The translations under genes and the position numbers were made by a program. The notes below the pieces were generated by a model. That model was given only the letters and a program-made list of their open reading frames with translations. It searched no databases and was not told the DNA's origin. DNA of 64,000 nt from Roseburia hominis (GTDB taxonomy: Bacteria; Bacillota; Clostridia; Lachnospirales; Lachnospiraceae), in NCBI RefSeq assembly GCF_021531695.1, contig NZ_JADYUI010000012.1:1-64000 (forward strand), written 5' to 3'. Of this stretch, positions 3,442 to 27,392 are shown in pieces. The number at the start of each line of letters is the position of its first letter. The stretch's first letter is position 1.

Positions 3442-3650
3442 TGCTGTGACATTGATAGCGTTGAAGCGTGAGGTTGCTATCGTAAGATAGGTTTTCCGTG
3501 GAGCGAATGTCAAGTTAGGAAACTGGCGACAAGTCACTGTACGAATCAGATATGTCTACTAGAATGTAGAAACAACGTGTGTAAAGTTGTAGGACACACA
3601 CGGAGAAGTGTACAGTCACCGCTTGTCGTACTGAAGTAAAAGTGCGAAAA
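3442..3650 (+). promoter_or_regulatory. Structured leader RNA of the S10 operon
   Basis: Two closed domains can be drawn. Domain 1: GACATT (3448-3453) with AATGTC (3506-3511), enclosing GATAGC (3454-3459) with GCTATC (3476-3481). Domain 2: CGACAAG (3527-3533) with CTTGTCG (3622-3628) and ACTGTAC (3536-3542) with GTACAGT (3610-3616), enclosing hairpins TCTAC/GTAGA (3555-3570) and CGTGTGT/ACACACG (3576-3602). Leaders of this operon in other bacteria bind a ribosomal protein (L4 in E. coli) for feedback; that role is inferred here, as is which protein binds. No intrinsic terminator with a T run is obvious in it. Confidence 0.65.
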
Positions 3651-23154: not shown

Positions 23155-24330
23155 ATGAAAAAGCCGGTTCTTTTTTTTAGTAGTAGAGAAATATGCTACT
23201 ATTCTTCACAGTTTTTTGCAGCACAATTAGCAGAATCTTTTGAAAAATGCGGATATCCGGTAGAAGTCTGTGTGTTGGATTTGAAAAAGGATATTGAAAA
23301 ACAGTTAGCACCGTATGAAGGGAAAAGTTACGAGGCAATTGTTGATTTTAATTCTCTTTTGCCACATTTTTTATTAGAGGATGATAGTGCGTATGTAGAT
23401 CATTTAGATGGTCCCTTTTTTAATTATCTGGTAGACCATCCAATGTATCATCATCCGGGACTTATTCCAAAACTAAAGAATTATCATGTCTTATGTGTAG
23501 ATGAAAAGCATGTAGCGTATGTACAACATTATTATGAGCATATAAAAAGTGTTTCGATGCTTCCGCTTGCTGCGAATGAGGCGTTGTTACCAATTGAGAA
23601 TGAAAAAAAGAAAGAAGCGATATTATTTCCGGGAACCTATCGCAATAAGGAAGAAATTTATAAGCAAATTTGTGAATTGCCGAAAGAGCGGGAACAAGAT
23701 ACGAAAAAGATGATTGAGCTTTTGCAGGCAAATGAAGAAATGTCGCAGGAAGAAGCACTACGTTTGATTTTACAGGAACGTGGGGAAGAACTTACAGATG
23801 CACAATTTGCGGTTCGTATGAATGAGATGTATCATGCAGATCTGTATCTTCGTAATTATTATAGAGAAGAGGCAGTCAGAGCATTAATTGCACATCGAAT
23901 TCCCGTGACAGTTATGGGCGGTGACTGGGATCAGTTTGCGCAGGATGAGAATAAGTACTTTAAAAGAATCTCACCTGTGGATTTTTCAGTTTCCTTTCAA
24001 AAAATAGCAGAATATCAAGTGCTGCTTAATGTATCACCATTGTTTCGAGCCGGAGTTCATGACAGGGTATTTGCGGCAATGGCAAATCGGACAGCCTGTA
24101 TCACAGAGCAAAATCGTTATATGAAGAAGCATTTTAAAGAGAAAGAAAATGTTATGCTATTTTCGGTAAAAGATAAGACAGAACTTTCGAATCTTGCGGA
24201 AGAATTGCTTATAAATAAAACCAAACAGCGACAAATTGCGGAAAATGCCTATGAAGAGTTTAAAGCAAAGCATAGCTGGGATAAAAGAACACAGCAATTT
24301 TTGGAAATTATAAAAAGGAGCAGACAATGA
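23155..24330 (+). CDS. CgeB-like glycosyltransferase family protein
   Basis: 391 residues. The C-terminal half has GT-B features of the CgeB/Glyco_trans_1_2 group: VTVMGGDWDQF, INEYQVLLNVSPLFRAGVHDRVFAAMANRTACITE-type sequence and a final KHSWDKRTQQF helix. The N-terminal half (PVLFFSSREICYYSSQFFAAQLAE) resembles the acceptor domain. Substrate unknown; CgeB itself acts on spore-surface polysaccharide. The last codons overlap pepD as ATGA, so the two genes are co-translated. Annotation by fold is fairly sure, reaction is not. Confidence 0.7.
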   Translation: MKKPVLFFSSREICYYSSQFFAAQLAESFEKCGYPVEVCVLDLKKDIEKQLAPYEGKSYEAIVDFNSLLPHFLLEDDSAYVDHLDGPFFNYLVDHPMYHHPGLIPKLKNYHVLCVDEKHVAYVQHYYEHIKSVSMLPLAANEALLPIENEKKKEAILFPGTYRNKEEIYKQICELPKEREQDTKKMIELLQANEEMSQEEALRLILQERGEELTDAQFAVRMNEMYHADLYLRNYYREEAVRALIAHRIPVTVMGGDWDQFAQDENKYFKRISPVDFSVSFQKIAEYQVLLNVSPLFRAGVHDRVFAAMANRTACITEQNRYMKKHFKEKENVMLFSVKDKTELSNLAEELLINKTKQRQIAENAYEEFKAKHSWDKRTQQFLEIIKRSRQ

Positions 24331-25772
24331 GTAGATTAGAAAATTTAGAACCAAAAGAAGTATTTCATTATTTTGAGGAGATTAGTCAAATACCACGTCC
24401 TTCCTACAAAGAAGGAAAAATCAGTGATTATTTGGTGAAATTTGCACAGGATAGAAATCTTACCGTTTATCAGGATGAAATAAAGAATGTTGTAATTATA
24501 AAAGAGGCTACAAAAGGATACGAAAATGTAGAGCCAATCATTATCCAGGGGCATATGGATATGGTTTGTGAAAAGGAACCGGGTTATGACATAGATATGG
24601 AAAAGGAAGGCCTGACGTTACAGGTAGAGGGGGACTATCTTTCAGCAAAAGGAACAACACTTGGAGGAGATGATGGAATTGCCGTTGCTTATGCACTTGC
24701 TATTCTTGATTCCGATAAGATAGAGCATCCGAGACTGGAAGTGATTATTACTGTATGTGAAGAAGTAGGTATGGATGGTGCTACAGCACTGGATACTTCT
24801 ATGATAACAGGAAAGCGTGTCCTGAATCTTGACTCGGAAGAAGAGGGAAAGATGTTAGTAAGTTGTGCCGGTGGTTGTACAACAATTTGTACGTTACCGG
24901 TAAGTTTTGTGCAGGCGAATGGTCAGATGGTATCTGTAAAAATTTCAGGACTTCTGGGTGGACATTCCGGGAATGAGATAGACAAGCAAAGGGGAAATTC
25001 CAATCAATTGATGGGGCGTTTCTTGTGTAATTTGCAAAACAGAATGGATATTCAGATTGTAAAAGTAAATGGTGGTGCAAAAGATAATGCAATTCCGCGT
25101 GAAACCAACGCAGAACTTATGATTGCAAAAGAAAATGCAAAAGCTTTTCTGGAAGAAATTGAAAAATTTCAGGAGATAGTAAAAAAAGAATATCAGGTCA
25201 GCGATCCGGAAATCAGGATAGAAGGAGAATTGTTAAAAGATACAAACGCAGAAGCAATGTCTTTGGAGGATAGCAGAAAAGTTGTATTCTTACTGGTACA
25301 TCTTCCGGGTGGCATTCAACGCATGAGTATGGATATTAAAGGATTAGTAGAGACTTCTCTTAATATGGGAATTTTATCTACAAAAGAGAAGGAAGTGTCA
25401 ATGACTTTTTCGGTACGAAGCTCTTTAAAATCACAAAAAGAATTTTTAGTTGCAAAATTAAAGTCTATGTTAGAATTTGTGGGTGGTAGTATTTCCATAC
25501 GTGGAGATTATCCTGCATGGGAATATAAACAGGATTCAGCATTTCGGAATCAGGCGATTGCAGTCTATAAAAGAATGTATGGAGAAGAACCCGTCATTGA
25601 GGCGATTCACGCCGGTTTAGAGTGTGGAATATTAGCAAGCAAAATAGAAGATTTCGATTGTGTTTCGACCGGACCTGATATGTTTGACATTCATACAACA
25701 GAAGAACGTTTAAGCATCTCTTCTGCAAAACGTGTATGGGAATATGTGTTAGAGATACTTAAATGTAAATAA
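24327..25772 (+). CDS. pepD: Xaa-His dipeptidase (peptidase M20C, PepD)
   Basis: 481 residues. Cytosolic metallopeptidase that cleaves dipeptides such as aminoacyl-histidine. Metal-binding motifs are GHMDMVCEK (about residue 75), TLGGDDGIAVAYALAILD (about 110), VCEEVGMDGA (about 145) and LNLDSEEEGKM. The late histidine motif IHAGLECG is present. Length equals the family norm. Starts inside the previous gene's stop with AAGGAG upstream. Confidence 0.92.
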   Translation: MSRLENLEPKEVFHYFEEISQIPRPSYKEGKISDYLVKFAQDRNLTVYQDEIKNVVIIKEATKGYENVEPIIIQGHMDMVCEKEPGYDIDMEKEGLTLQVEGDYLSAKGTTLGGDDGIAVAYALAILDSDKIEHPRLEVIITVCEEVGMDGATALDTSMITGKRVLNLDSEEEGKMLVSCAGGCTTICTLPVSFVQANGQMVSVKISGLLGGHSGNEIDKQRGNSNQLMGRFLCNLQNRMDIQIVKVNGGAKDNAIPRETNAELMIAKENAKAFLEEIEKFQEIVKKEYQVSDPEIRIEGELLKDTNAEAMSLEDSRKVVFLLVHLPGGIQRMSMDIKGLVETSLNMGILSTKEKEVSMTFSVRSSLKSQKEFLVAKLKSMLEFVGGSISIRGDYPAWEYKQDSAFRNQAIAVYKRMYGEEPVIEAIHAGLECGILASKIEDFDCVSTGPDMFDIHTTEERLSISSAKRVWEYVLEILKCK

Positions 25773-25859
25773 TTAATTTCTTAAGGAAGTCTAAAGAAAA
25801 GAGAATATTATTTTATAATCCTTTTATAATTATGACATAATTTAGTCACAATTTAAGAT

Positions 25860-25865
25860 TATACT
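25860..25865 (+). promoter_or_regulatory. Probable -10 element of the intergenic RNA
   Basis: TATACT at 25860-25865 lies 7 bp before the predicted RNA start near 25872. No convincing -35 hexamer is found at the usual distance, so this promoter call is weak. Confidence 0.35.
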
Positions 25866-25871
25866 TAAGAT

Positions 25872-26006
25872 ATCAAATGAGGTTGACGGTATTGGGGTTC
25901 CGAGATCTTGAGCCGTCAGCTTCGACTAGGCAATAATTTCCTTTTTAATAGATGTAACATTTTCATAACTAAACTCCTCGAAAAAGCAGCCATTTGGCTG
26001 CTTTTT
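25872..26006 (+). ncRNA. Candidate structured RNA with its own terminator, before the antiporter
   Basis: The 429-bp gap between pepD and the antiporter contains no credible gene. It holds an 8-bp stem GTTGACGG (25882-25889) with CCGTCAGC (25913-25920) around a 23-nt loop rich in G and C, then an A+T-rich linker, then a strong terminator AAAAAGCAGCC (25981-25991) ATTT GGCTGCTTTTT (25996-26006). An about 135-nt RNA is expected. It could be a small RNA or an attenuating 5' leader; a separate promoter at 26089-26117 favours the former. It does not match a riboswitch class I can recognise. Confidence 0.5.
25981..26006 (+). terminator. Rho-independent terminator of the intergenic RNA
   Basis: A perfect 11-bp stem AAAAAGCAGCC/GGCTGCTTTTT with loop ATTT ends in five T. 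The A run makes it able to work in both directions, but no minus-strand gene ends here. Confidence 0.88.
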
Positions 26007-26088
26007 CACTTTATAGGAAATTTTCAAAATTTTCTATATAATAAAAAGTATTTCATGCCAAGATGTGTAGTTCGCAGAGAGGAAAGAA

Positions 26089-26117
26089 TTGAATTTTCTA
26101 CGAAAATGGTGTAAAAT
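26089..26117 (+). promoter_or_regulatory. Promoter of the antiporter gene
   Basis: TTGAAT (26089-26094) and TAAAAT (26112-26117) are 17 bp apart. The start would be near 26124 and the leader about 78 nt, downstream of the terminator at 25981-26006. Confidence 0.55.
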
Positions 26118-26201
26118 ATACAAAAAAGTTATGCAAAATAGAATGAAAATAAAGACTTGTGCAAAATCTGAAAGAGAAGACATAATAGAAAAGGGGCGTT
26201 A

Positions 26202-27392
26202 ATGATTATGGAGTCTTATGAGTTTTTATTGTTTTTGGCGGTTATACTGTTTGCAACAAAGATGTGCGGTTTGTTTTCCAGAAAGTTTAATATGCCACAG
26301 GTAGTAGGAGCATTGATTGCCGGGATTATTTTAGGACCATCTGTTTTAAATTGGATTGACTTTACGGGAACAAGCGGAAGTTACCTGGAGATTACAGCAG
26401 AGATTGGTGTTATTTTGTTGATGTTTTCAGCCGGTCTTGGAACGGATTTGACAGAGCTTAGGAAAAATGGAATCGCTTCCTTTGTGATTGCGTTAATAGG
26501 TGTCATTGTTCCATTACTTGGAGGTTTTGTATCTTATGCATTTTATTTCCATACGAATTTTAATGACTTTGCAGAAGTATTAAAAGCAGTTTTTGTCGGA
26601 GTTGTATTGACTGCAACTTCAGTAAGTATTACGGTAGAAACATTGCGCGAGATGGGAAAATTAAAGGGGCGTGTCGGCACAACGATTCTTGGAGCTGCGG
26701 TAATTGATGATATTATGGGGATTATTGTGCTTACCGTGGTAACCAGCATACAAGATAAGTCTGTAAAGCCAAGTAGTGTATTACTTAAGATTATCTTATA
26801 TTTTGTAATGATAGCAGTAGTGGCAGTCATTCTGGTGAAATGTAAGAAAATAATAGAGGGACCGGGTGAAAAGCGCAGAATAACGATTTTTGCGATTGCA
26901 TTTTGCTTTTTACTTTCTTACATTTCAGAAAAATTCTTTGGAATTGCAGATATTACCGGAGCATATTTTGCCGGTCTGATGTTATGTAATATGAAAGTTG
27001 GTCATTATATTGAGGAGAGAGTCGGAGTTCCGTCTTATTTAATTTTCTCTCCGGTATTTTTTGCAAGTATCGGAATTAAGACACAATTAAAGCATATGGA
27101 TTTGAGGTTATTAGGATTCTGTTTCATTTTACTTGCAGTAGCGATTTTGACTAAAATTTTAGGATGCGGTTTGGGAGCAAAGCTTTGCAAATATACGAAT
27201 AAAGAGGCATTACAGATTGGAGTCGGAATGATATCGCGTGGAGAAGTTGCGTTGATTGTGGCACAAAAAGGGCATGCTTGCGGTATGCTGGATGATATTC
27301 TGTTTGCCCCTATTGTTGTAGTAGTTATTGTGACTACATTGATTACACCGATTCTCTTAAAACTGGTAATGAAAGAAAAAGAAGCAAAATAA
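26202..27392 (+). CDS. Monovalent cation:proton antiporter, CPA2/KefB type
   Basis: 396 residues, about 12 membrane helices, no C-terminal TrkA-N domain. It starts near ESYEFLLFLAVILFATKMCG and has the conserved NMPQVVGALIAGIILGPSVL loop, and the ion-site region AAVIDDIMGIIVL (about residue 165), with the two Asp of the DD pair. It exchanges Na+ or K+ for H+ across the membrane; which ion cannot be told. The ATG at 26202 follows AAGGGG by 5 bases; a Met two codons later (26208) is possible. Followed by a WYL regulator gene. Confidence 0.85.
   Translation: MIMESYEFLLFLAVILFATKMCGLFSRKFNMPQVVGALIAGIILGPSVLNWIDFTGTSGSYLEITAEIGVILLMFSAGLGTDLTELRKNGIASFVIALIGVIVPLLGGFVSYAFYFHTNFNDFAEVLKAVFVGVVLTATSVSITVETLREMGKLKGRVGTTILGAAVIDDIMGIIVLTVVTSIQDKSVKPSSVLLKIILYFVMIAVVAVILVKCKKIIEGPGEKRRITIFAIAFCFLLSYISEKFFGIADITGAYFAGLMLCNMKVGHYIEERVGVPSYLIFSPVFFASIGIKTQLKHMDLRLLGFCFILLAVAILTKILGCGLGAKLCKYTNKEALQIGVGMISRGEVALIVAQKGHACGMLDDILFAPIVVVVIVTTLITPILLKLVMKEKEAK

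Follow-up and report, generated by a model that had tools for sequence, protein, structure and literature searches.

A candidate response-regulator-driven small RNA with an anti-start linker next to an antiporter gene of Roseburia hominis

The gene-free gap between a beta-Ala-His-type dipeptidase gene (24327-25772) and a CPA2-type cation/proton antiporter gene (26202..27392, plus strand) in the 64,000-nt stretch of Roseburia hominis DNA analysed here (the window) very probably encodes a standalone, trans-acting small RNA (sRNA) of a two-component stress regulon, which would block the translation starts of mRNAs by pairing. Of the two readings that a sequence-only reading had left side by side, an independent sRNA or a leader sensing an ion or cell-volume signal, a regulated promoter and terminator of its own, mostly unrelated gene neighbourhoods and a conserved, unpaired antisense core point to the former, with the antiporter gene as a neighbour and not a component.

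Anatomy and conservation of the RNA

A putative operator of four phased 11-bp units on the plus strand, TTTTATAATCC, TTTTATAATTA, TGACATAATTT and AGTCACAATTT (25811..25854), includes the core repeat GACATA (25834-25839)-N5-GTCACA (25845-25850), which is conserved in homologs and is followed after 9 nt by the -10 element TATACT (25860..25865). The predicted plus-strand transcript of ~136 nt (25872..26007), with its start placed 7 nt past the -10, comprises a 5' hairpin of 20 bp with a 4-nt loop (UUCC; 25879..25923), a linker and an intrinsic terminator with a 12-bp stem and a UUUUUC tail (25980..26007). The -10 element, the 8-bp pairing (25882-25889/25913-25920) and the terminator that had been proposed for this gap are all in place, while the long loop once assigned to the 8-bp stem is an error, as these pairs sit within the almost continuous 20-bp hairpin. 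The fold energy of -45.5 versus -28.2 kcal/mol (z -4.7) beats 200/200 dinucleotide shuffles, and a chance origin of the structured RNA is ruled out because it is conserved in other genera. The terminator, whose stem-loop and U-tract are plainly readable in the sequence, was overlooked by a simple terminator scan because its T-run pairs inside the stem. As to the antiporter, thought earlier to have a likely promoter of its own, a separate promoter-like site does exist (TTGAAT-N17-TAAAAT, 26089..26117, plus strand), but it is weak, with 9/12 consensus matches.

The linker AACAUUUUCAUAACUAAACUCCUC (25956-25979) is perfectly antisense to a translation-start sequence, AGGAG-N7-AUG-AAAAUG. This stretch of the plus strand, the core AACATTTTCATAACTAAACTCCTC (25956..25979), is invariant across genera and mostly single-stranded in the predicted transcript (mean unpaired probability 0.85), and it holds an anti-AUG CAU (25964-25966) and an anti-Shine-Dalgarno (anti-SD) CTCCT (25974-25978). 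Its reverse complement, GAGGAG-TTTAGTT-ATG-AAAATGTT, reads as a Shine-Dalgarno (SD) sequence, a 7-nt spacer and a start codon, a typical MK start. Alignment of six loci revealed a conserved promoter upstream, then the invariant core CATTTTCATAACT(A/C)AA..CTCC and finally a terminator of variable sequence, the invariant part of the core amounting to 15 nt across the six genomes.

The 5' hairpin behaves differently. Its lower 12 bp covary in five genomes, with double-sided changes at 4/12 pairs, and 96.7% of cells in the hairpin alignment pair, versus at most 60% for slid partners, in a test of only five sequences whose arms were aligned by hand. In other genomes the hairpin is lost or replaced by other hairpins. 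In particular, it is missing from the related genome G421, which retains both RNA and antiporter; the expectation that the stem is kept wherever the antiporter is shared fails there, and therefore the stem is not what matters. Judged by this pattern, the unpaired linker is the conserved and presumably functional part of the RNA, and the 5' stem a real but dispensable accessory.

A DNA search of 145 relatives unearthed homologs in several genera. A model built on core and terminator only (R1) matched 38/397 family genomes at E 0.01, with ~15 clear core carriers, several weaker matches that are credible relatives by sequence, and E-values that are rough, many genomes being draft or metagenome-assembled. 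Homologs occur in ~4% of Lachnospiraceae genomes, chiefly in differing gene neighbourhoods, and one genome (G205) carries three copies. Named carriers include Eubacterium ramulus and metagenome-assembled Lachnospiraceae, the scan fitting a variant core, CTCAATCTCCC, only; the homolog of E. ramulus ATCC 29099, a cultivable human-gut species, has the promoter box. In 392 genomes from the order, of which those listed belonged mainly to this one family, R1 had no match beyond it.

A shared promoter box and its candidate regulon

Homolog promoters share the 11-bp direct repeat GWCAYA-N5-GWCAYA-N9-TATAnT, and an 11-bp period is that of response regulators of the OmpR/PhoB family. The box, ending 9 nt upstream of the -10, is present with single-base departures in 6/6 aligned promoters, the six from which its consensus was first read. 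Among the nine next-best R1 matches, none of which was used for model building, eight have the strict box upstream, compared to 0.5% of random segments. Matches to the box outnumber those to a reversed control by ~34 to 9 across six genomes (a rough sum of listed or tallied matches). Whole-genome counts of box versus reversed pattern were 12:2 in the R. hominis genome itself (G000), 11:1 in G001, 10:0 in G421 and 8:2 in G077, with little excess in G057 (7:4). Part of the matches fall by chance within coding sequence, and those reading CCCATAC were discarded because they are located in coding regions. The motif TTTTCATA lies within 200 nt downstream of 21/63 distinct box places (some overlapping), versus a background of 3.3%.

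The box precedes the gene for a PhoB-type response regulator in all five genomes examined (G000, G001, G057, G077 and G421), with the kinase gene next after the regulator gene where the order is not rearranged; in R. hominis, regulator and kinase genes lie on contig C114. For neither protein did NCBIfam return an equivalog scoring above its cutoff. In G001 the kinase gene (75% identical) lies on a separate contig (L193) with a box of its own and an integrase gene follows the regulator gene (L192), a split that is a natural experiment if it is not an assembly artefact. After a kinase gene we also observed a gene for a lipoprotein of no Pfam family (L190 2-583, minus strand) that recurs in G057 and may belong to the sensing system.

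HtrA-type protease genes are likewise preceded by the box in G000, G001, G057 and G077, and twice in G421. All six contain Trypsin_2, and PDZ is found in 4/6, the remaining two being truncated where the locus ends. Further box-preceded genes encode secreted proteins, a subtilase (G077) and two more response regulators (RR2 of G000 and RR3 of G057), and because of these last two the activator might instead be a different member of the OmpR family.

Searches with the box alone also yielded additional candidate sRNAs with UUUUCAUA, a C-rich stretch and a terminator, and the strict box is absent from several sibling sRNAs. The R. hominis genome has three sRNAs sharing box and anti-start design (C33, C59 and C135), and G001 has five box-linked sRNAs, namely the orthologs of these three and two more. 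The second sRNA (L088 1748-1857) lies between uvrA and mreB genes (names read from translations) and carries UUUUUCAUAACUCAUGCUUCCC as its anti-start core; in the third (L277, minus strand 1410-1494) the core is CUUUUUCAUAAACUCUCCCCC. Among siblings the spacing between anti-AUG and anti-SD, as well as the SD part, varies much like real SD-AUG spacings. Box-driven RNAs at L165 and L262 (G001), L167 and L279 (G057) and L278 (G077) represent a second architecture among anti-start sRNAs, in which UUUUCAUA occurs twice and UUCCUCCC sits in a loop of its own. Directly 3' of the second sRNA, in the uvrA/mreB-type gene gap, lies a TwoAYGGAY RNA (RF01731, 108.6 bits; L088 1944-2110, plus strand).

Proposed mode of action and alternative explanations

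We propose that a stress, probably of the envelope or of protein folding, leads to phosphorylation of the PhoB/OmpR-type regulator encoded with its kinase on C114, which would bind the phased 11-bp repeats, located across the -35 region, to switch on transcription of the sRNA, while also activating its own operon, htrA and the sibling sRNAs. The variable 5' hairpin and the terminator would flank the RNA such that the U-/C-rich linker is exposed, its CAU and CUCCU matching AUG and Shine-Dalgarno sequence at their natural spacing. The sRNA and siblings of the same design would then pair with the start regions of selected mRNAs, the putative targets, and repress them by blocking ribosome entry. 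Sequence statistics back this scheme as far as the box, whereas binding, transcription, pairing and repression are inferred.

Target searches with antisense patterns revealed no conserved, strongly complementary mRNA. The 21-nt antisense pattern had no second site in the R. hominis genome with up to 3 mismatches, GTTATGAAAA sites exhibited no enrichment over control, and a recurrent match to the antisense pattern, GCATGAGTTATGAAAA, turned out to be a second sRNA and not an mRNA target. The antiporter mRNA was rejected as a target, since its pairing with the core (-13.9 kcal/mol) is weaker than that of several other genes in the window. It is conceivable, if unlikely, that the sRNA is real and driven by the response regulator but acts mainly by binding a protein (an RNA chaperone or regulator) via its U/C-rich linker, given the unusual invariance of the core and the failure of the searches to turn up a natural target with extended complementarity. 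However, the variation of siblings in anti-AUG/anti-SD spacing and in the SD part mirrors real SD-AUG spacings, which makes mRNA pairing the easier explanation.

A cis-acting leader or riboswitch, which would sense an ion or volume signal and control terminator readthrough into the antiporter gene, is very improbable. The RNA adjoins the antiporter gene in G000, G001 and G421, with the terminator preceding the gene, but among the loci examined these are the only three, the downstream genes differing in other genomes, and G421 keeps RNA and antiporter without the hairpin. Moreover, what is conserved is an antisense linker that stays unpaired, the fold offers no evident competing antiterminator, the antiporter has a promoter-like site of its own and known ion riboswitches (Rfam cis-regulatory families) gave no match at gathering score in the region. 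About as improbable is a small peptide (MKMLHLLKRKLLPSRS here) started by the SD-AUG of the minus strand, to which the plus-strand RNA would be antisense. On that strand GAGGAGTTTAGTTATGAAAATG would make a good ribosome-binding site and start, but the frame diverges past ATGAAAATGTT with early stops in homologs, the conserved box and -10 direct transcription of the plus strand, and siblings preserve nothing but the antisense design, at variable spacing.

Relation to known response-regulator-dependent sRNAs

The pairing sRNA that we favour resembles the CiaR-dependent csRNAs of streptococci (RF02379), which also have a promoter controlled by an OmpR-family response regulator, its 11-bp direct repeat lying ~10 nt from the -10, and which likewise have several siblings per genome, a variable genomic position and htrA in the regulon (PMC3091779, PMC8186281). 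The csRNA design of an unpaired anti-SD and anti-AUG linker between two stem-loops (PMC3091779) recurs in the predicted fold, from 5' stem-loop to terminator, and several sRNAs per genome with a common box and anti-start design are present in R. hominis and G001. Streptococcal siblings act additively, and how strongly they regulate does not follow from the complementarity predicted (PMC4507080). Unlike the Lachnospiraceae RNA, csRNAs have the CiaR box NTTAAG-N5-TTTAAG or TTTAAG-N5-TTTAAG ten nt upstream of the -10, in place of GACATA-N5-GTCACA (consensus GWCAYA-N5-GWCAYA). The recognition helix also differs, being VVEVYVSKVRKKL in CiaR and TIDTHVKKLRNKL in the likely regulator, in a comparison covering part of the response regulators of R. 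hominis. The RF02379 covariance model, which scored highest among sRNA families on this strand, reached 28.8 bits (E 0.077), below the gathering score of 57, and Rfam at gathering and relaxed thresholds gave only sub-threshold sRNA matches at the RNA. As box, regulator helix and covariance score fail, the RNA is not a csRNA member, and it likely works like a csRNA without belonging to RF02379.

RsaE/RoxS RNAs carry a C-rich SD-binding motif. They differ in sequence from the RNA described here, with no Rfam match at this locus, and are alike as Firmicute sRNAs activated by a response regulator (ResD/SrrA; PMC4409812, as far as the accessible part of the source goes). The LisRK-dependent LhrC1-5 RNAs of Listeria are also two-component-controlled siblings with C-rich anti-SD motifs, whereas they have another regulator and several UCCC motifs in loops, and the accessible part of the source reports no anti-AUG CAU core (PMC4132741). 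LhrC and RsaE/RoxS are of the same general kind but more distantly analogous.

On balance we favour the view that Lachnospiraceae, dominant gut commensals, possess a CiaRH-like circuit for envelope or protein-quality stress, in which one box would place the operon of a distinct PhoB-type system, HtrA-type proteases and a set of sibling sRNAs silencing translation starts under common control. This wiring would have arisen in both streptococci and gut clostridia, or diverged between them beyond sequence recognition. In the part of the published literature covered, nothing describes these RNAs or any sRNA regulon in Lachnospiraceae. The circuit assembled here is testable and combines a protease and several sRNAs with a candidate regulator and an operator consensus. 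It suggests that joining a two-component system to HtrA and sibling anti-start sRNAs is a solution that recurs beyond streptococci. Elsewhere in the window (3453-3532, plus strand) lies an S10-Clostridia ribosomal protein leader (93 bits), an element already known.
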